Source: a bacterium
GTDB lineage: Bacteria; Electryoneota; Electryoneia; Electryoneales; Electryoneaceae
Assembly (NCBI GenBank): GCA_020444265.1
Contig: JAHLLH010000009.1
Span: 107,881-171,880 of the forward strand
DNA length: 64,000 bases
Reading direction: 5' to 3'
The position numbers and the translations under genes were made by a program. The notes beneath the pieces were generated by a model. The model worked only from the letters and a program-made list of their open reading frames with translations. It was not told where the DNA came from and did no database searches. Within the stretch, counting starts at the first letter, position 1; every line of letters starts with the position of its first letter. This document shows positions 4,409 to 53,971 of the stretch, piece after piece.

Positions 4409-5131
4409 TTAAAAGTGAAAGACCAGGCCGAGGGAGGCACCAGCTGTCCGTGTGGACCACCTGGAATTGTCTCCCTTGTAGCCATCTGTGGAATTGAAGG
4501 AGCCGGAGGAACGGCGCTCGGATTCAATGTCTTCGGATTCGTAAATCATACGGTACCCATAGGAGCCGAGAAGCGAAACTTGCTGGGTGATACGCCACTG
4601 CACATCGAGAACCGCGTGACCACCAATACCCCATCCTGAAAAAGTGAGATCGCTTTTAGAGAGGTCTGAACTTGATTGGGACTCGGACGTGTAGTCTCGT
4701 GTCCTCTTGAACCACTCGAGCAAAGGTCCGCAGGCGAGGGATGCCTGGAGGGTTCCCTCCGGTTTGAGATGGTACACTCCCAGGGCGGTGACGACGGCCG
4801 AGTAGTAGCCATCGTCCTGGTCTCGGTGGTCATCATCAATGCCAGAGGAGGAGGATCCTCGTCTCTTGGACGAAAACGAGGCACCGTAAAAGCTGGCTCC
4901 AGCTCGCAATCCGATCTTGTCCAGGTAACGGCGTTCCAATGCAAATACAAATCCACCGGGATAGCTGGAGGTGCCCGGCTGCAGGTAGTATTGGAAGAGC
5001 ATCGAGGTTGTTCCGGTTGGAACACGATACCCTTCATCCTGCCCCGCTTGCGCGGCATTGGAAACGGTGGACATCGAGAGGATCAGCAGCAGTTCTGCCA
5101 GCATAATGATCCTGAGAGGGAGAGATTTCAC
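4409..5131 (-). CDS. Putative outer-membrane beta-barrel protein (paralog cluster 4/4)
   Basis: GTG start preceded by GGAGGT on the minus strand; signal peptide; C-terminal ASLGLVFHF. Confidence 0.6.
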   Translation of the reverse strand: MKSLPLRIIMLAELLLILSMSTVSNAAQAGQDEGYRVPTGTTSMLFQYYLQPGTSSYPGGFVFALERRYLDKIGLRAGASFYGASFSSKRRGSSSSGIDDDHRDQDDGYYSAVVTALGVYHLKPEGTLQASLACGPLLEWFKRTRDYTSESQSSSDLSKSDLTFSGWGIGGHAVLDVQWRITQQVSLLGSYGYRMIYESEDIESERRSSGSFNSTDGYKGDNSRWSTRTAGASLGLVFHF

Positions 5132-5434
5132 GTGGACCTCCGAACAAGTATCGACGTGGTATATGCAATTTGAATATGCTTTGGAATGTGTTTCTTGTTG
5201 GCACGGTCCCTGGTTTGGAACGCATTTGCAGGCACAGCGGAATGACATGTAGAAAGGAGTTGTGTGGAGTGTGCGAAAGAGGATAGCATAGGTGTCTTGA
5301 AATAATGCTGATTCATCTGGGTCTCAACGTTTTGATATCTGATAGTTGTCACGACGGCACATACGTATGATAGTACTACCAACATACAGTATCGTTTTGT
5401 AATTGTCCACTAGTTAGGCGGACCATTCGAAAGC

Positions 5435-5466
5435 TATATAACAAGCGCCTGCGTGTGCAGGCGTTT
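5435..5466 (-). terminator. Probable terminator downstream of pdxT
   Basis: CGCCTGC-ACAC-GCAGGCG hairpin followed on the minus strand by cTTGTTATAT. Confidence 0.5.
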
Positions 5467-5471
5467 AAGAT

Positions 5472-6101
5472 TCAGGACATCTGGAAAATCAGTTGATGCA
5501 ATCGCCGGTCGGCGGATCGTTCCGGGTGGAAGGTGGCCAGCCAGATGTTGTTCTGACGGACCAGCACGGGGTCGCCATCGTACTCTGCCAGCACCTCAAC
5601 ACCCGGTCCAAGTTTGGTGATCCTCGGGGCTCGAATCCAGACCGCTTCGAAGGGGCTATCCAGGCCGTCAATTTCAATATCAGCGATGAAGCTGTCGATC
5701 TGACGGCCGTAGGCATTTCGTTCCAATTCCACATCGATCAACTCGAGCGGGGTCACCTTGTGGTGGCTGCCCTTACCCAGCCAGATCGCACCCGCGCAGG
5801 TGCCCAACAGGGTACGTCCGGTTGCGGCGTAGGCGGCCAGCACGCGGTCGAGGCCGTAGCGACGGCCCAGCAGGTCAATCGTCGAGGATTCGCCACCGGG
5901 AAGGACAAGGCCATCGGGGATGGGTCGGCTTGCCGCGTCACGTTTGATCGCTTCGGGACGTGCTTCCTTCAACGGCTTCGAAGGATCTGCAAACCCGGCA
6001 TCCTCAGCGCGGCGAATCTGGACCGTCTCGATGCCAATGTCGCGCAAGGCGACTTCGTGGGTTTCAAAATCCCCCTGCAGGGATAGCACACCGACCAACA
6101 T
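5472..6101 (-). CDS. pdxT: Pyridoxal 5'-phosphate synthase glutaminase subunit
   Basis: GVLSLQGDFETH, LPGGESSTI, GTCAGAI, ATFHPE motifs; beside pdxS. Confidence 0.93.
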   Translation of the reverse strand: MLVGVLSLQGDFETHEVALRDIGIETVQIRRAEDAGFADPSKPLKEARPEAIKRDAASRPIPDGLVLPGGESSTIDLLGRRYGLDRVLAAYAATGRTLLGTCAGAIWLGKGSHHKVTPLELIDVELERNAYGRQIDSFIADIEIDGLDSPFEAVWIRAPRITKLGPGVEVLAEYDGDPVLVRQNNIWLATFHPERSADRRLHQLIFQMS

Positions 6102-6165
6102 GGCAGGGATCCTTTTGTCGAAAACGACCCGGATGGAAGTCCGGGTCGGAGATTGATGACTGAAC

Positions 6166-6380
6166 GGTGACTGGTACGCGCCATCTCAACGTGTGAAACC
6201 GTTTCCCTGTTCGAGCTGGTGGAGCGTCCAATCAGGTTCAATACCCGAGTGTACCTGTCACCAGATCGTCAAGGCAGCGGTGACAGGTACACTCGGGGAA
6301 TGGATCCCGTCACACGCTCCCGTTCTTTTCCAACCAGAACGCTGGAGCACGCTCTTCGACTGTGTACCAGTCACCCTCGG
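6166..6380. repeat. Tandem double REPIN-like element, copy 2 (between pdxS and pdxT)
   Basis: GGTGACTGGTACGCG (6166-6180) / GAGTGTACCTGTCACC (6247-6262) / GGTGACAGGTACACTC (6279-6294) / TGTGTACCAGTCACCCTCGG (6361-6380); same order and near-identical spacing as copy 1. Confidence 0.85.
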
Positions 6381-6381
6381 T

Positions 6382-7320
6382 TTACCAGCCGCGGCTGGCC
6401 AACTTTTCTTCTTCCGGCATGCTGCGGATATCGAGGCCGTGCATCACCGCGCCCTGGTCACGCTGGGCAGCGAGGACCTCGGCGGGATCGTTGAAGTTAG
6501 TCACCGCACGGACAATTGCGGCGGCCAGCTTGCCCTGGACTTTCATCCGCTCCTTGACATCCTCGATGTCCGAACCGGCCTTAAAGATACCAGAACCAAC
6601 AAAGACCGTCTCCGCGCCGAGCTGCATCATCAGGGCGGCATCCGCCGGGGTGGCGACACCACCTGCAGCGAAGTTCGGCACCGGTAGCTTGCCATGTTCG
6701 TGCACGTACTGGATCAGCTCAAACGGTGCGCCGAGGTTCTTCGCTTCGGCCATCAGTTCGGTGATGTCCATGTGCTGGATGCGGCGCATGTCGCCCATGA
6801 CCTGGCGCATGTGACGGACCGCTTCGACCACATTCCCGGTGCCCGCTTCTCCCTTGGTACGGATCATCGCAGCACCTTCGCCGATGCGGCGCAAGGCTTC
6901 GCCCAGGTTGCGGCAACCGCAGACAAAGGGGACACGGAAATCATGCTTGTAGACATGATTAGCTTCGTCAGCAGGAGTCAGCACTTCGGACTCGTCGATG
7001 AAGTCAACACCCAGTTCCTGGAGCAGTTGGGCTTCTACAATGTGACCAATCCGGATTTTCGCCATCACCGGAACCTGGACCGCATCCATGATCTCCTCGA
7101 GAACTTCAATGCGGGACATCCGGGCGACTCCGCCTTCCTTGCGAATGTCAGCCGGGACACGTTCCAGTGCCATCACAGAGGCTGCGCCAGCATCCTCAGC
7201 GATCTTCGCCTGCTCGGCGTTGGTCACATCCATGATCACACCACCGCGGAGCATGTCCGCGAGCCCAACCTTCACCGAGAAATCGTATTTTTTCCCGCCG
7301 CCGTTGCTCTGCGTAGCCAT
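6382..7320 (-). CDS. pdxS: Pyridoxal 5'-phosphate synthase lyase subunit
   Basis: [50 protein letters not shown] is diagnostic PdxS. Confidence 0.98.
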
Positions 7321-9007: not shown

Positions 9008-10195
9008 TTACTTCACCACCCCAAGCTGCTTGCCGACACGGATAAAGGCCGCGATGGCGGCATCGAGGTTTTCACGTGTATGGGCAGCAGATAGCTGGAC
9101 ACGGATGCGCGCTTCGCCCTTTGGCACGACGGGGAAGAAGAAGCCGATGACGTAGACACCCTCATCGAGCAGCTGGCTCGCGAACTTCTGGGCGAGCGGG
9201 GCATCGTAGAGCATGATCGGCACGATAGGTGTGTCGCCGGGACGGATATCGAAGCCCGCTTCGGTCATCATCGTGCGGAAGTACTCAGTATTCTTGTGCA
9301 GCGTCGTGATCAGTTCTTTTGATTCCTCAAGCAGCTCGAAGGCACGGATCGAGGTGTGCGCGATCATCGGTGCGAGGGTGTTGCTGAAGAGGTAGGGCCG
9401 TCCACGCTGACGCAACAAATCCACAATTTCCTGGTGCGCGCAGACAAAACCACCGGATGCTCCGCCCATCGCCTTGCCGAGGGTGCCGGTGATGATATCG
9501 ATCTTGTCAAGCACATCATGATGCTCGGCGGAACCTTTGCCGTTGGCCCCGATAAAACCGGTCGCGTGAGAATCATCAACCCCAACCATCGCATCATACT
9601 TCTCGGCCAGCGCCACAATTTCCTTCAGCTTCGCGGTGTCACCATCCATCGAGAAAACACCATCGGTGAAGACCAGGCGGTGCCGTGCCGACTGAGCTTC
9701 CTTCAGCTTCTCTTCGAGGTCGGCCATATTGGCGTGCTCATAACGGAAGCGCTGTGCTTTGCAGAGCCGGATACCATCGATGATAGAGGCGTGGTTCAAG
9801 GCATCCGAGATGATCGCATCCTCCGGCCCGAGCAGCGGCTCAAACAGGGCGCCATTGGCATCAAAGGCCGAGGCGAAGAGGATGGTGTCATCCTTCTCGA
9901 GGAAGGAAGCAATCTTCTTTTCGAGCTGTTTGTGGACTCCCTGGGTGCCGCAGATGAAACGGACCGAGGACATGCCGTAGCCCCAGCGATCAAGACCCTC
10001 GTGGGCCGTCTTGACCAGTTCCGGGTGGCTGGACAGGCCAAGGTAGTTGTTGGCGCAGAAGTTGAGCACATCCCCTGCGGGTACATTGATCTTCGCACCC
10101 TGCGGAGTGTTGATCACTCGTTCGTCTTTGTAGAGCCCCGCCTCACGGATTGAGGTGAGTTCGGTCGCGAGGTGCTCTTTTATCTTGCCGTACAT
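9008..10195 (-). CDS. kbl: Glycine C-acetyltransferase (2-amino-3-ketobutyrate CoA ligase)
   Basis: Class II aminotransferase fold; [47 protein letters not shown]. Confidence 0.95.
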
Positions 10196-10245
10196 CGAAA
10201 GCCTCCCTTTTCAGCTTCAAATCGTATCACTGGGGCATAAGATAA

Positions 10246-10271
10246 GGGCAGGCATTGTCGAATGCCTGCCC
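10246..10271 (-). terminator. Terminator hairpin downstream of 10303-11112
   Basis: GGGCAGGCATT-cgac-AATGCCTGCCC perfect hairpin followed by TTATCTTAT on minus strand. Confidence 0.65.
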
Positions 10272-10302
10272 TCCAGAGAGCTATTCATCCAAGATGCCGG
10301 GA

Positions 10303-11112
10303 TCAATCCCCGAACGGATTTTTCAACGTCAGACCTATGCCGTAGAAGGGACCCGACCAATCAAACTCTACGATTTTCGGATCAGCAGTATCGTAGGCCG
10401 CAACTGGATAGTTGCCGACTGTCAAACCATACTCACCAACCATCCGATCAGATACACTGGAGCGCCACCCGCCACCCATGTCAAGGTCGATGTATCGGGT
10501 CAGGGCAACACGCAGACGTCCTTCTATCCGCCAAGGTGTGTAATTACCACTGATGTCAATCGGAGAATCATCAGGGTCGCCATTGGGGGTTGGACCAGCG
10601 TAGGGAGGGTGAGGGTCCTTGTACTCGCCCTTGGCAAATCCCCAGCCCATCGAGCCAAAAAGAGCTACCGATAGACGATGGCCCAGCGGCTGGATGTAGC
10701 CTGCGCTGATAAGGTATTCACGGGCCGATGTGGTGACCACATACTCATTGGGTGCCCACTGGGTAGACCCATTGATCAGGACATACGACTCATACCCGAC
10801 TGTCTGTTCCGGGACATTGCAGTAAATAAAACCCAGGTAAAATGAGTTGTAACGGAAACCAGCTTTCAGCTCAGCAGCCCATTCCTCATTGATCGACTTG
10901 AGGTTGTCGACGGTACGTTGCTGCATCGATTCGCGTTCCAGAGCGACACGTGAATCAATAGCATCCTGGACCTGATCAAATCCATAACTCTGCTGATTGT
11001 AAATAACAGAAGCCTCGAAACTCCAAGGCGAAGCTTCCTGGGCTTGGGTTACGGTGGGCAGCAGTATCAGCAGGACAGCGGGAATCAGCCACCGCATGTT
11101 CAACCGTGACAT
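10303..11112 (-). CDS. Putative outer-membrane beta-barrel protein
   Basis: Signal peptide (MRWLIPAVLLILLPTVTQAQ), beta-rich, YGIGLTLKNPFGD end. Confidence 0.6.
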   Translation of the reverse strand: MSRLNMRWLIPAVLLILLPTVTQAQEASPWSFEASVIYNQQSYGFDQVQDAIDSRVALERESMQQRTVDNLKSINEEWAAELKAGFRYNSFYLGFIYCNVPEQTVGYESYVLINGSTQWAPNEYVVTTSAREYLISAGYIQPLGHRLSVALFGSMGWGFAKGEYKDPHPPYAGPTPNGDPDDSPIDISGNYTPWRIEGRLRVALTRYIDLDMGGGWRSSVSDRMVGEYGLTVGNYPVAAYDTADPKIVEFDWSGPFYGIGLTLKNPFGD

Positions 11113-37041: not shown

Positions 37042-37416
37042 GTTCGGTCAGCTCCTTGCATCTGTTCCGCCAGACCCCGATATGTTCCGTCAGGTCCTTA
37101 GCGCAGCGGAGACCTGACGGTGTAGCACGGGCATCTTGCCCGTGCATCGCGCCTTTGGCGCGAATGGTGTGTCAGATCTGAGGATCTGACACAACTGTGA
37201 AGATGTAGGCATCTGACACAACTATGAAGTGTAGGCGTCTGACACAACGTTGCAGGTTCGGTCAGGTCCTTGTATCTGTTCCGTCATGTCCTTAGCGCAG
37301 CGGAGACCTGACGGTGTAGCACGGGCATCCTGCCCGTGCATCGCGCCAGGGGCGCGAAACCTGTGTCAGATCTTCGGATCTGACACAACTGTGAAGACGT
37401 GGGCATCTGACACAAC
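37042..37416. repeat. Tandemly duplicated modular hairpin repeat upstream of miaB
   Basis: Unit 1 37042-37255, unit 2 37256-37416; 37084-37203 matches 37278-37397 at a constant 194-nt offset; four successive palindromes and five CTGACACAAC copies. Confidence 0.88.
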
Positions 37417-48751: not shown

Positions 48752-50779
48752 TCACGCATTTTTCGCTCGTTCCTTCTCCCGCACCTCTTCCGGCACGTAG
48801 GAGCCCTTCAAGCGGTCGATCTCGTCACGCAATTGCGCTGCTTTCTCGAACTCGAGGGAGTCGGCGGCGCGGAACATCTGCTCTTCCAGCCGCGAGATCA
48901 GCTCTTCCTTTTCGCCGGTGGAGAGCTCCGCCGGTTCCACCTTTGGCAGGCCTCCATCATAGCCAGTGCGGTCGTGTGCGGCCCGAGTCGAGGCGAGGAT
49001 CTCATCGACAGACTTCCGAATGGTCTTCGGCTCGATCCCATGTTCCTCGTTGTAGTCCTGCTGCACCTTGCGGCGGCGATTGGTCTCGTCGATCACCTTC
49101 TGCATTGAGTCGGTGATGGAATCGGCGTAGAAGATCACCTTGCCTGCTGCGTTACGCGCGGCACGTCCCGCAGTCTGCATCAAGCTGGTTTCGCTGCGCA
49201 GGAAGCCCTGCTTATCGGCATCCATCACCGCCACCAGCGATACCTCCGGCAGATCGAGCCCCTCACGCAACAAGTTGATCCCGACCAGCACATCGAAGTG
49301 GCCCAAGCGCAGATCGCGCAGGATTTCGACACGTTCAAGGCTGTCGATTTCGCTGTGCAAATAACGGATGCGGACATCGAGACGACGCAGGTAGTCGGTC
49401 AGGTTTTCCGCCATCCGTTTGGTCAACGTGGTGACCAAGATACGTTCGCCGTTCTCGGTGCGCAGACGGATTTCTTCCTGCAGATCATCTACCTGACCCT
49501 CGGTCTTCTTGACTTCAATTTCCGGATCGAGCAAGCCGGTGGGGCGAATAATCTGTTCGACCAGCAAACCGCCAGACCGTTCCATCTCATAGTTCGAGGG
49601 GGTTGCGCTGACAAAGAGCATCTTTTTCGCGCGTGCTTCCCACTCGTGGAATTTGAGGGGACGGTTGTCCAAAGCGCTCGGTAGACGGAAGCCATAGTCG
49701 ATCAGCACCTCTTTGCGGGCACGGTCCCCGTTGTACATCCCGCCAATCTGCGGCACGCTGACATGGGACTCGTCGATCACGACAAGGAACTCGTCAGGGA
49801 AGTAGTCATAAAGGGTGAAGGGTGCTTCGCCCGCCTCTTTGCCGCTGAAGTGTCGGCTGTAGTTTTCCACGCCCTGGCAGTAGCCCACTTCGGCGAGCAT
49901 CTCGAGGTCGAACCGGGTTCGCTGTTCGAGACGTTGCGCTTCCAGCAGTTTGCCCTGCTTACGCAATTCCTCGAGACGGAGGTTCATTTCCTCACGGATG
50001 GTGACCATCGCACGTTCGGTACGGTCGGTCGAGGAGACATAGACCGTATTCGGGTAGACCGCCACCGCCTTCAGCTCTGCGATTACTTCGAAGGTGACCG
50101 GGTGGACCTTGACGATCTTTTCGATCTCATCGCCCCACATCTCGATCCGGACAACTTCCTCGCTGTAACGGGGCAGAATCTCGACCGTATCACCCCGCAC
50201 CCGGAACTTGCCGTAATCAAGGTCGGCATTGGTCCGTTCGTACTGGATCTCCACCAGGCGCATCAGGATCTCGTCACGTGTGATCGCCTGTCCTGGCTGG
50301 AGGAACATCGAAAGGGCCTTAAAATCTTCCGGCGACCCAAGACCATAGATCGATGAGACCGAGGCGACGACCACCACATCATCCCGTTCAAAAAGGGAGG
50401 AGGTGGCGCGCAAGCGCATCCGGTCGATGGTGGCGTTGACGGACGTTTCCTTGCCGACATAGGTGTCTGTTGTCGGCATGTAGGCTTCCGGCTGGTAGTA
50501 ATCGTAGTAGGAGATGAAGTATTCGACAGCATTGTTCGGGAAGAAGTGACGGAACTCACCATAGAGCTGCGCGGCGAGGGTCTTGTTGTGGGACATGACC
50601 AGGGTTGGCAGTCCCAACTCCTTGATCACCTGGGCTACCGTATACGTCTTCCCGGACCCGGTAATGCCGAGCAGCACCTGGGCATCCGCACCACTGCGAA
50701 ACCCGCGTACCAGTTGCTCAATTGCCTGCCCCTGGTCCCCCCGGGGCTCGAAGTTGCTGACGAGTTCGAATTTGGCCAT
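48752..50779 (-). CDS. uvrB: Excinuclease ABC subunit UvrB
   Basis: LLGITGSGKTYTVAQVI, YYQPEAYMPTTDTYVGKE, UVR motif EEQMFRAADSLEFEKAAQLRDEI. Confidence 0.98.
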   Translation of the reverse strand: MAKFELVSNFEPRGDQGQAIEQLVRGFRSGADAQVLLGITGSGKTYTVAQVIKELGLPTLVMSHNKTLAAQLYGEFRHFFPNNAVEYFISYYDYYQPEAYMPTTDTYVGKETSVNATIDRMRLRATSSLFERDDVVVVASVSSIYGLGSPEDFKALSMFLQPGQAITRDEILMRLVEIQYERTNADLDYGKFRVRGDTVEILPRYSEEVVRIEMWGDEIEKIVKVHPVTFEVIAELKAVAVYPNTVYVSSTDRTERAMVTIREEMNLRLEELRKQGKLLEAQRLEQRTRFDLEMLAEVGYCQGVENYSRHFSGKEAGEAPFTLYDYFPDEFLVVIDESHVSVPQIGGMYNGDRARKEVLIDYGFRLPSALDNRPLKFHEWEARAKKMLFVSATPSNYEMERSGGLLVEQIIRPTGLLDPEIEVKKTEGQVDDLQEEIRLRTENGERILVTTLTKRMAENLTDYLRRLDVRIRYLHSEIDSLERVEILRDLRLGHFDVLVGINLLREGLDLPEVSLVAVMDADKQGFLRSETSLMQTAGRAARNAAGKVIFYADSITDSMQKVIDETNRRRKVQQDYNEEHGIEPKTIRKSVDEILASTRAAHDRTGYDGGLPKVEPAELSTGEKEELISRLEEQMFRAADSLEFEKAAQLRDEIDRLKGSYVPEEVREKERAKNA

Positions 50780-51125
50780 GGTCTATGGAGGGTCCTGTCA
50801 TTCTGGCAGAAGTTTGAACCTGAAAGGTACGGAGAAAGGCTGGAGCGGTCAAGGGTGGATAGTGAACATTTGAGAGGTAGTAGGGGGGCTTGGTCTATCA
50901 CTTTGCGTGGCAAAGATTCTTTATGGTGGAGGAATCAACCAATTAGCTTTGGGTAGGCTAAACACTAAATTTTACTTCTATTTGCTTGATTAACTGAAGG
51001 TTATTATAGAAATCCTTACGGGAAATATTTTCTCCTTGCGTCTGTTTCAACATCATTTATTTTCAGTCATATAGGTCTATTGAGAGACCAAGTTCCAAAG
51101 TAATTGTCGTAGATTAAGCAGGGTG

Positions 51126-51154
51126 TTGTAACTGTAGTGAGCAGTATCTATAAT
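51126..51154 (+). promoter_or_regulatory. Sigma70-like promoter of the island operon
   Basis: TTGTAA (51126-51131), 17-bp spacer, TATAAT (51149-51154); start codon 24-27 nt downstream. Confidence 0.65.
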
Positions 51155-51177
51155 CAAGTGTCAAATGGGTTTTGGGA

Positions 51178-51567
51178 ATGATGACTATCTTTGATCGATT
51201 CGTGAGCTTGCCTTTTGCAGAGGTAGCATCTGCAGCAATAATACTCTGCATGTTAAGAATCGTCGTGCAGGAACAGCCAAAAGGCGCTCTGGAGATTTTA
51301 CAATCCATAATCTATCTTTCGTCGGATGTATATTTGCTTGCAATTGGCCTTTTTTTTGCGAGTAAATATTATCTTGCAGGTACTGTAAGAATTGGCGTCG
51401 CAAGCTTTACAGTTTATTTGATATTCTATATCTTTACATTGCTTAGCATTCGTTGGGCAAGGCGGCGTTTTTTTGAAGAAGACTATAGGGGAGCTATAAT
51501 TATTACGATACTTAGCCTTACAGTTTCTATCATATTTTTAGCGCATACTATATCGGTGTTTGCTTGA
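51178..51567 (+). CDS. Small polytopic (about 4 TM) membrane protein, unknown
   Basis: Four hydrophobic segments; ATG at 51178 or 51181; AT-rich codon usage. Confidence 0.65.
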   Translation: MMTIFDRFVSLPFAEVASAAIILCMLRIVVQEQPKGALEILQSIIYLSSDVYLLAIGLFFASKYYLAGTVRIGVASFTVYLIFYIFTLLSIRWARRRFFEEDYRGAIIITILSLTVSIIFLAHTISVFA

Positions 51568-51576
51568 GGTGAAAAA

Positions 51577-52257
51577 GTGATAAGTCAAGATATGATGATA
51601 TATATATTGTTTATCTCGTTATTAGCGGCTGTTATAGCGCTCGTAACTTTATTATATTCAAAATTGAGAAGAGAAGAACGTTATAATTACGATTTAAAGA
51701 AAGTGCAATTAGATGATCATAGAAAATACGTTGAAGATAAGATATATAGCCTACAAAAGCAGTTGTTGCATTCTGAGGATAGATGGAAGTCAATAAATCA
51801 TTTGCTCCTAGATTATCAGAATAATGATAATAAGATTACTAATATAATTAATAGTAACGAAAAAGTAAATGATAGGCTAGTGTTTGTGTTAATGCCGTTT
51901 AATGAGGATTACTATGATGACTTTAGGGTAATCAGGAATGTATGCTATAATTTGGATTTTAAATGTTTGAGGGGTGATGAGGATAAGGTATCAAGGAACA
52001 TTCTTGAACATATTACTAAATTGATAAAATCAGCCGCTATGATAATAGCATTTATTGATGGGAGAAATCCAAATGTATTTTATGAGCTAGGAATGGCACA
52101 CGCTTTAGGGAAGAAAACAGTTATTCTGTCAAAAGGCAATTTTGATAATAATATGCCCCCGTTTGATTTAAGGACGAGCAATATTATATTTTATGAAAAT
52201 GAAAAGGATCTTGAGAATATTATGAGTAGCGAGATGCCTAGGATTATGTTGAAGTGA
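51577..52257 (+). CDS. N-terminal TM + coiled-coil + TIR-like/nucleoside 2-deoxyribosyltransferase-like domain protein
   Basis: VFVLMPFNEDYYDDFRVIRNVC...CLRGDED...ILEHITKLIKSAAMIIAFIDGRNPNVFYELGMAHALGKKTVILSK; GTG start 9 nt after the upstream stop with SD GAGGTGA. Confidence 0.75.
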   Translation: MISQDMMIYILFISLLAAVIALVTLLYSKLRREERYNYDLKKVQLDDHRKYVEDKIYSLQKQLLHSEDRWKSINHLLLDYQNNDNKITNIINSNEKVNDRLVFVLMPFNEDYYDDFRVIRNVCYNLDFKCLRGDEDKVSRNILEHITKLIKSAAMIIAFIDGRNPNVFYELGMAHALGKKTVILSKGNFDNNMPPFDLRTSNIIFYENEKDLENIMSSEMPRIMLK

Positions 52258-52308
52258 TGGTAAGGATTGATCATATATAGATATGTTACTCGGATATCCA
52301 AGAAATTG

Positions 52309-53181
52309 CTACTCTATACCATTCATCACCGCTTGCTCGACGGCATCCTGCACGAGGAGAGTGAGGGTGGGCATTGCGGCGTTGGGACCTTTGCCGGTCG
52401 AGAGGAGGAAGGCGGTATCGCCGTCCCAGATGGTATGGGAGGGACGGATGACTCGGGCCAGGGCACTCTGGGCGGTGTCGGCAAGTTGACGGGCCTGCGC
52501 TTTGCTGATCGGGGCTTCAATGGCGACGGTCAGCAGGGTGGTATTGCCGAATTGCAGCGAGGCGTGGAGGAAGGCCTCCCGGTCCCCATGCCCGGCCAGC
52601 AGCTTTCCTTCCGGGGTGGTGACATCTCCGACTGGATTGACCACCGCTACGGCCCCGACACGGACCCCCTCGAACTCGACCAACGAACTACCCAACCCCG
52701 ATGGCACAGGCTTGATGTACTTGCCTGCGCTCGCTCCGGTGCCTGCACCGACCCGGCCTGTCGCGAGCGGAGCATCGGAAGCAGCCTCGCAGGCGGCGTA
52801 GCCGGAATCTGCCGTGGGACGAGCCTTCGGATCACCGACCACGAGATCGTAGATCACCGCCGCCGGGACAATTGGCACCTTCGCCGCCGGGGTTGGGTGG
52901 CCGATGTCATGGTGCTCCAGCCAACGAACCACACCATCCGCCGCGGCCAACCCAAACGCTGACCCGCCGGTCAGCAGGATCGCATGGACACGTTCCACCT
53001 TCTTCTCAGGCGCAAGCAGCACCCCTTCACGTGTCCCCGGAGAGGGGCCGAAGAAGGAGGCAGAGGCGACCGCCCCTTCCGGTGGTGCGAGGATGACAGT
53101 GCACCCGGTCTGGCCCTCACTGTCGGTCCAATGCCCGGCACGGATGCCGTTAATCGCGGTGATGGTGTTGTTTTCGCTCAT
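52309..53181 (-). CDS. P1 (DmpA/S58) family peptidase
   Basis: LTGGSAFGLAAADGVVRWLE, GRVGAGTGASAGK, VGAVAVVNPVGDV. Confidence 0.92.
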   Translation of the reverse strand: MSENNTITAINGIRAGHWTDSEGQTGCTVILAPPEGAVASASFFGPSPGTREGVLLAPEKKVERVHAILLTGGSAFGLAAADGVVRWLEHHDIGHPTPAAKVPIVPAAVIYDLVVGDPKARPTADSGYAACEAASDAPLATGRVGAGTGASAGKYIKPVPSGLGSSLVEFEGVRVGAVAVVNPVGDVTTPEGKLLAGHGDREAFLHASLQFGNTTLLTVAIEAPISKAQARQLADTAQSALARVIRPSHTIWDGDTAFLLSTGKGPNAAMPTLTLLVQDAVEQAVMNGIE

Positions 53182-53455: not shown

Positions 53456-53971
53456 TCACTCCATCAGCATATCACTGTAAGAACGTTCCAACAGCTGCTC
53501 GGGCAGAATACCAAGCCGTTCAATCCACTCGTTGCACTGCTCACGAAGCCGTTCCTCACCGATCGTGCCCTCGAAATCTATAGCCTCGATCTCGACGAAG
53601 CTGCCAAGTCCTTCGACCATGTCCACGTGCAGCTTGACATTGTCGACAAAATGAATCTCGCGATGCTTATCGACAACGACAAGTACTCCGAGGGAATTGG
53701 TCAAGGCGAGTTTTAGCTCTTCGCCGTCTCCGACATCCTTCACCAGCACGACCTGAGAGTTTTTCGGGCCTGCCTGGTTGGGACGATTGTACTGGATCAG
53801 TGCTCGTTCGATGGTTCCCTGACGTAGTTTGAGACGGCCATTGGGGACTCGGAAATAGGTGTCCACCTGGTGATCGGTGCCACGGAAATCGCTGCCCGCT
53901 TCATTGAGGATGGCGCGGATACGATCCGGGTCAGGGCAGCTTGCTTTGATCTCGATATTCAGGTGGGGCAT
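53456..53971 (-). CDS. CYTH-domain protein (class IV adenylate cyclase/CyaB-like)
   Basis: NIEIKASCPD (ExExK), DTYFRVPNGRLKLRQG, HVDMVEGLGSFVEIEAI. Confidence 0.88.
   Translation of the reverse strand: MPHLNIEIKASCPDPDRIRAILNEAGSDFRGTDHQVDTYFRVPNGRLKLRQGTIERALIQYNRPNQAGPKNSQVVLVKDVGDGEELKLALTNSLGVLVVVDKHREIHFVDNVKLHVDMVEGLGSFVEIEAIDFEGTIGEERLREQCNEWIERLGILPEQLLERSYSDMLME

Follow-up and report, generated by a model that had tools for sequence, protein, structure and literature searches.

The window, a stretch of 64,000 nucleotides, comes from a genome of 4.33 Mb in 19 contigs. It contains an island at 51178-52257 (+ strand) formed by two co-directional genes, g1 followed by g2 (Table 1). The island lies between uvrB (48752-50779, - strand) and a gene at 52309-53181 (- strand) whose putative product, named from its sequence, resembles a DmpA/P1-type peptidase. 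Its GC content is 33.5%, compared with 56.0 ± 2.5% (minimum 48.8%) in the other 1.1-kb segments of the window, in agreement with the abrupt AT-rich island described in the original prediction. The coordinates, strands and sequences that had been given for both genes, and the approximately four transmembrane (TM) segments of g1, were borne out by the sequence and its translations.

The island had also been credited with a promoter of its own, TTGTAA-N17-TATAAT. The sequence is indeed present, but the region has 11 promoter-like sites against 6.7 ± 2.2 in shuffled sequences, a count that is not above chance, and the candidate is thus not significant by itself. The Shine-Dalgarno sequence of g2, TGAGGTGA, overlaps the g1 stop codon and, hence, the translation of the two genes is probably coupled. 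No convincing direct repeats or attachment site were found at the island ends, and neither a tRNA nor an Rfam element that could be the integration target was found within the window. A short tandem repeat (period 26, 2.4 copies) is present at 37184-37248.

Table 1. Features of the island and its leader (positions in the window).
Feature	Coordinates	Strand	Basis
AT-rich leader, non-coding	50940..51177	.	Sequence and GC profile (GC 0.58 to 0.41-0.30)
Candidate sigma-70-like promoter, TTGTAA-N17-TATAAT	51126..51154	+	Consensus scan, 10/12
g1, 129 aa, four hydrophobic segments	51178..51567	+	ATG start; translation
Overlap of g1 stop and g2 Shine-Dalgarno (GAGGTGA)	51563..51576	+	Sequence
g2, 226 aa	51577..52257	+	GTG start 9 nt past g1 stop; translation
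g2 enzyme-like domain, residues 98-225	51868..52251	+	Conservation, 100-111 relatives

The g1 proteins (120-146 aa) are proven, at the level of sequence profiles, to form one family. An HMM built from the other members found the window g1 with an E-value of 1.1e-9 among 5911 ORFs (best non-member, 0.076), and leave-one-out HMMs recovered every held-out g1 with E-values from 1e-9 to 4e-21. HMMs derived from the first nine g1 proteins also found those of loci L230 (1.3e-22) and L232 (2.5e-19); the g1 of L231 gave a weak match (0.02) and its assignment rests on position. Identity of the relatives to the window g1 is only 12-24%. Near-invariant positions are few, namely a Pro that precedes TM1 and the P-x-D with which TM2 begins. 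In the latter motif, [LF]-P-x-D, P and D are each kept in 11/12 proteins (E replaces D in the twelfth). The window g1 has S-S-D at this place, with D50 as the acidic residue, and the protein of L052 has P-G-E. Loop 3 is the most basic loop.

The AF2 model of g1 consists of four helices (mean pLDDT of 76), and Foldseek returned no structural match (none below E 0.7). Assignment of g1 to a known channel or family was rejected, the Pfam/PHROG matches being scattered and sub-threshold and Foldseek giving none; no characterised member of the g1 family is found in any library searched. The protein is almost all TM helix with short loops, and contains no domain for ligand binding, whether Macro, SLOG or other. 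Because it lacks a soluble domain, a ligand-gated pore would be less likely than a sensor or an anchor.

The g2 protein is composed of a TM helix (residues ~8-26), a coiled coil extending to ~90 and an NDT/TIR-class Rossmannoid domain (98-225). Its AF2 model, generated from a 24-sequence alignment (mean pLDDT of 88.5), has one long helix (4-65) comprising the TM and coiled coil, short helices and the Rossmannoid domain. When compared to the PDB with Foldseek, it matched the 2'-deoxyribosyltransferase 7o62, the CMP N-glycosidases BcmB/MilB, DNPH1/Rcl and TIR domains (MAL, TIR-1), with E-values of 2.5e-5 for NDT and BcmB and of 2.2e-4 for the MAL TIR. Alignment of the family profile to Rcl with hhalign gave a probability of 94% (E 9e-8) and paired the family NPNVFYELG with the Rcl LGVGYELG, the Glu of YELG being aligned. 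PF05014 matched 8/8 scanned g2 members; the window g2 had the best E-value of the eight, with a score of 25.3 bits that is under the curated cut-off of 28.8, which the soluble relatives L056 and L061 pass. The PADLOC TIR effector profile PDLC00733 also matched 8/8 scanned members (best 1.3e-10). The TIR profiles (Pfam TIR, TIR_2, ThsB_TIR) gave no match in the window g2, and CAP12-PCTIR (PF10137) gave marginal matches only, in single members. Both the profiles and the predicted fold are compatible with a C-terminal domain of the NDT/TIR-class Rossmannoid type.

The motifs of this domain are an MPF loop, R132-x-D134, N164-P-N-V-F-Y-E170-L-G and P195-F-D197. E170, a catalytic-type Glu that follows strand 3, is kept in 111/111 relatives, and conservation is also high for N166 (0.99), V167 (0.97), D197 (0.97), Y169 (0.96) and N164 (0.94) among 100-111 relatives. 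Positive charge follows the TM helix in all 12 g2 proteins, which by the positive-inside rule means that the domain is probably cytosolic. A SLATT origin of the g2 N-terminus was considered and discarded: the sole PF18142 match (0.016) came from L039 and two members have two TMs, but the other members gave no support.

The association of the two genes was then assessed. Since the searches used g2 alone, the pairing constitutes independent evidence. A two-sequence g2 alignment used against viral contigs gave seven long matches, six of them full-length, and every full-length one was preceded by a same-strand TM protein of 128-146 aa. These six viral loci, a Bacillus albus plasmid (NZ_CP128151), the window, and four loci from a Photobacterium-centred order sample (L214), a Pseudomonadota-centred sample (L230, L231) and a Bacteroidota-centred one (L232) make up the set of 12 loci. 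All 12 full-length g2 genes have g1 directly upstream, with a gap of -14 to +9 nt; the g2 homologues are 29-40% identical to that of the window. As a control, we have inspected all fetched relatives: the partner was present in 11/11 TM-anchored g2 outside the window versus 1 of ~90 relatives without an N-terminal TM. Five more proteins flagged as TM had no partner, and corresponded to a 577-aa multi-TM protein (L003) and to marginal hydrophobic stretches in soluble proteins. Divergence between loci in g1 follows that in g2, the two distance matrices having a correlation of r=0.58 (permutation p=0.001). Retention of the pair in such distant bacteria exceeds what chance would give. In single-protein scans, neither g1 nor the g2 N-terminus was found swapped onto other effectors.

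The seventh viral match (L051, 4998-5597) is a truncated g2 that has neither the TM helix nor an upstream g1, a double loss that would be consistent with the TM helix and g1 being needed together.

Prophages and plasmids carry the module, which also occurs as chromosomal insertions and bears a mobility signature. With the neighbours named by sequence inspection, the copy in L126 has terminase and tyrosine-recombinase genes close by, that in L127 follows a portal-type gene, that in L129 is beside a terminase on the opposite strand, and those in L130 and L132 lie by large serine recombinases. Another copy is on a 531-kb plasmid (L039), and isolated chromosomal insertions were found in L215 (adjoining groESL), L233, L234 and L235. 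The AT content of the module exceeds that of the flanking DNA in 12/12 loci, the difference ranging from 2.5 to 25 points. The module is rare, with four matches among ~1,800 genome slots in partly overlapping samples from outside the phylum of the window. The genes beside the copy in the window include none recognised as an established defence gene.

We have also compared the uvrB region of the host with that of its relatives, the phylum set being of only 39 genomes. In G005, G002 and G006, of the same family as the host, uvrB adjoins a homologue of the window gene 53456-53971 (CYTH/adenylate-cyclase-like, by sequence) at a spacing of 0.2-0.5 kb, without the island and without the peptidase gene. 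The corresponding interval of the window is occupied by the island and the peptidase gene. The nearest relatives of the host belong to different genera, and hence the comparison gives absence in sister lineages rather than the exact insertion point. A search of 60 relatives yielded no g1 homologue. On these sequence grounds, the island is best described as a lineage-specific, horizontally acquired insertion. Three family relatives (L223, L224, L225) likewise have no DmpA/P1-peptidase-like gene in the interval from uvrB to the CYTH-like gene, which may therefore be a small insertion spot.

Four observations had been named beforehand as contrary to the original prediction: no homologous gene pairs elsewhere, no structural match to TIR/NDT folds, loss of the conserved Glu in homologues, and the island at normal GC in close relatives. 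None of them was made. The neighbourhood check found g1 upstream of 12/12 full-length g2, AlphaFold/Foldseek returned NDT, DNPH1/Rcl and TIR matches for the C-terminal domain, E170 was retained throughout (111/111), and the island was missing beside uvrB in three relatives.

Clues to the substrate of g2 come from its relatives. Every active member of the TIR-DrHyd-SLOG clade that has been characterised cleaves N-glycosidic bonds, be it in nucleotides or in nucleosides (PMC9503650). In NDT and DNPH1, a Tyr that contacts the Glu is associated with 2'-deoxy substrates, the same position being usually Phe or Ala in NADase TIRs (PMC11204291). Strand beta-1 of g2 has V102/F103, in a register uncertain by one, and no NDT-type Tyr; F is found in 85/99 ungapped relatives. 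As confidence in the alignment register over beta-1 is low, little weight can be put on the absence of the Tyr. In two relatives, the g2-type domain is joined to a Macro domain (L018, 2374-3576) or to a TIR_2 domain (L009, 357-1361), which suggests NAD/ADP-ribose chemistry. Together, the V/F residues and the fusions weakly favour NAD+ or another ribonucleotide, and not a 2'-deoxynucleoside, as the g2 substrate.

The pair was compared with known enzymes and defence systems. With NDT, DNPH1 (Rcl) and MilB-BcmB (PF05014; DrHyd branch, PMC9503650), g2 shares the predicted fold, the GPF/MPF-type loop that follows strand 1 and the catalytic-type Glu of YELG; it differs from them by its TM and coiled-coil anchor, the constant four-TM partner and the lack of the NDT-type strand-1 Tyr, and no metabolic gene context was seen. 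The CAP12/Pycsar TIR effectors (PF10137) and PDLC00733 have a related catalytic segment (PDLC00733 being matched by eight of the eight g2 members), but the pair has no CD-NTase/cyclase gene and no STING/SAVED sensor domain, and PF10137 is marginal. Swarozyc, a DUF4062 TIR-like NADase, is reported to be a single protein that assembles with the phage portal and acts in abortive defence (PMC13174449). Its TIR-like domain, distantly similar to TIR and NDT, and its catalytic Glu are reminiscent of g2, which in contrast has no DUF4062 match, is anchored by a TM helix and is paired with a membrane protein.

Kiwa, in which KwaA senses phage at the membrane, is also a two-gene system with an inner-membrane sensor protein and a cytosolic effector (PMC12904381). 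The KwaA/KwaB profiles of PADLOC gave no match in any member of the pair, and the g2 effector is N-glycosidase-like and tethered, whereas KwaB is a DNA binder. The P2-like phage AC1 has a prophage-borne, three-gene system of TIR and TM proteins with demonstrated defence (PMC9122126); in our pair, TM and TIR/NDT parts are in one protein that has a four-TM partner, and no sequence match to the AC1 system was found. No Thoeris, CBASS or Pycsar partner (ThsA, cyclase, nucleotide sensor) stands beside g2, the sole conserved partner being g1. Zorya (ZorA/ZorB), a MotA/MotB-like motor pair whose peptidoglycan-binding domain is periplasmic, was discarded, as the weak ZorB match (0.0043) covers the TM and coiled coil alone and the g2 domain is NDT-like and, by its charge pattern, cytosolic.

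By the features tested, the pair is not Kiwa, Thoeris, CBASS, Pycsar, Zorya or Swarozyc, and it was described nowhere in the profile libraries (PADLOC of 2023) or literature (open-licence papers) searched. Enzymes of this class are known; what is new, as far as we could find, is the tethering to the membrane together with a four-TM partner family. By analogy, the pair would work most like a TIR-type NADase effector associated with a membrane sensor.

Based on these data, we propose a recently acquired module in which a membrane-tethered N-glycosidase is controlled by g1 as sensor and acts in abortive defence, a reading to which, taken whole, we give an even chance. It builds on the pair, its conservation and mobility signature and the invariant Glu, and on a fold predicted by a model; from these we infer catalysis, substrate, g1-g2 contact, sensing and defence. 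The TM helix and coiled coil would tether g2 to the inner face of the membrane, with the cytosolic domain being a putative TIR/NDT-class N-glycosidase that acts via Glu170, probably on NAD+ or a ribonucleotide. The constant four-TM partner g1 would most likely sense membrane damage or phage entry and set free a g2 that is otherwise kept inactive, for instance through clustering of the coiled coils. The combination of a tethered coiled-coil enzyme and a constant small membrane partner suggests that control is exerted at the membrane, by clustering or by release, much as KwaA acts as membrane sensor in Kiwa. The resulting nucleotide depletion would abort the infection. The step from a mobile nucleotide-cleaving pair to phage defence draws on cargo context and family company. 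The wider proposal of a two-protein defence family spread by prophages and plasmids through several phyla, in which a four-TM sensor (P-x-D) activates a tethered TIR/NDT-class NAD+ glycohydrolase, is plausible but falls just short of an even chance.

A membrane toxin-antitoxin-like addiction module, with g2 as nucleotide-depleting toxin and g1 holding it inactive, would need no phage sensing. The tight operon (gap -14 to +9 nt), the fixed gene order and the plasmid and prophage copies are all compatible with it; the first gene, however, is that of the partner, which is embedded in the membrane and has a conserved acidic TM2 residue, unlike typical antitoxins, and we hold this explanation to be unlikely. 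It also overlaps with the proposed defence module, since many defence systems are toxin-antitoxin-like. Alternatively to abortive defence, the module could be prophage cargo serving superinfection exclusion or lysogenic conversion. In such a case, g1 would block DNA entry or alter the membrane and g2 would tune nucleotide pools to the benefit of the resident phage, the cell not being killed. The moron-like site among structural genes on the opposite strand (L126, L129), the position after a portal-type gene (L127) and the structural similarity to CMP/hmCMP hydrolases acting on phage-type nucleotides agree with this, but the chromosomal copies without visible prophage (window, L215, L233, L234) suggest host selection too, which leaves exclusion or host modification distinctly unlikely.

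The layout of a TIR/NDT-class enzyme with a TM protein is also that of Thoeris-type and phage AC1 systems (PMC11204291, PMC9122126), and a messenger made by g2, such as an ADP-ribose derivative, might open g1 as a membrane pore. We regard such signalling as improbable: g1 lacks the Macro, SLOG or other domain with which to bind a ligand, and g2 is membrane-tethered, whereas a diffusible messenger would need no tether.

If the proposed defence module is real, detection at the membrane would lead straight to nucleotide breakdown of the TIR/NDT type, with neither a nucleotide messenger nor a STAND sensor in between. With a size of ~1.1 kb, it lends itself to easy cloning and testing. The g2 domain is intermediate between the NDT/DNPH1 enzymes of metabolism and the TIR NADases of immunity, and might thus reveal how the preferred substrate changed from one group to the other.

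Related arrangements were seen outside the 12 loci. Temperate Firmicutes phages have soluble single-gene versions, namely SM1 gp11 (L221), SAP-26 ORF45 (L220; on the strand opposite to the neighbouring genes) and phiEf11 PHIEF11_0065 (L219). In L215, a 234-aa gene with no Pfam match (9770-10474) follows the module beside groESL, and is possibly a third component or unrelated cargo. The 577-aa L003 protein (4735-6468), directly 3' of a 387-aa gene, fuses about nine TM segments to the same NDT/TIR-class domain as that of g2, and is thus a membrane version in one gene.
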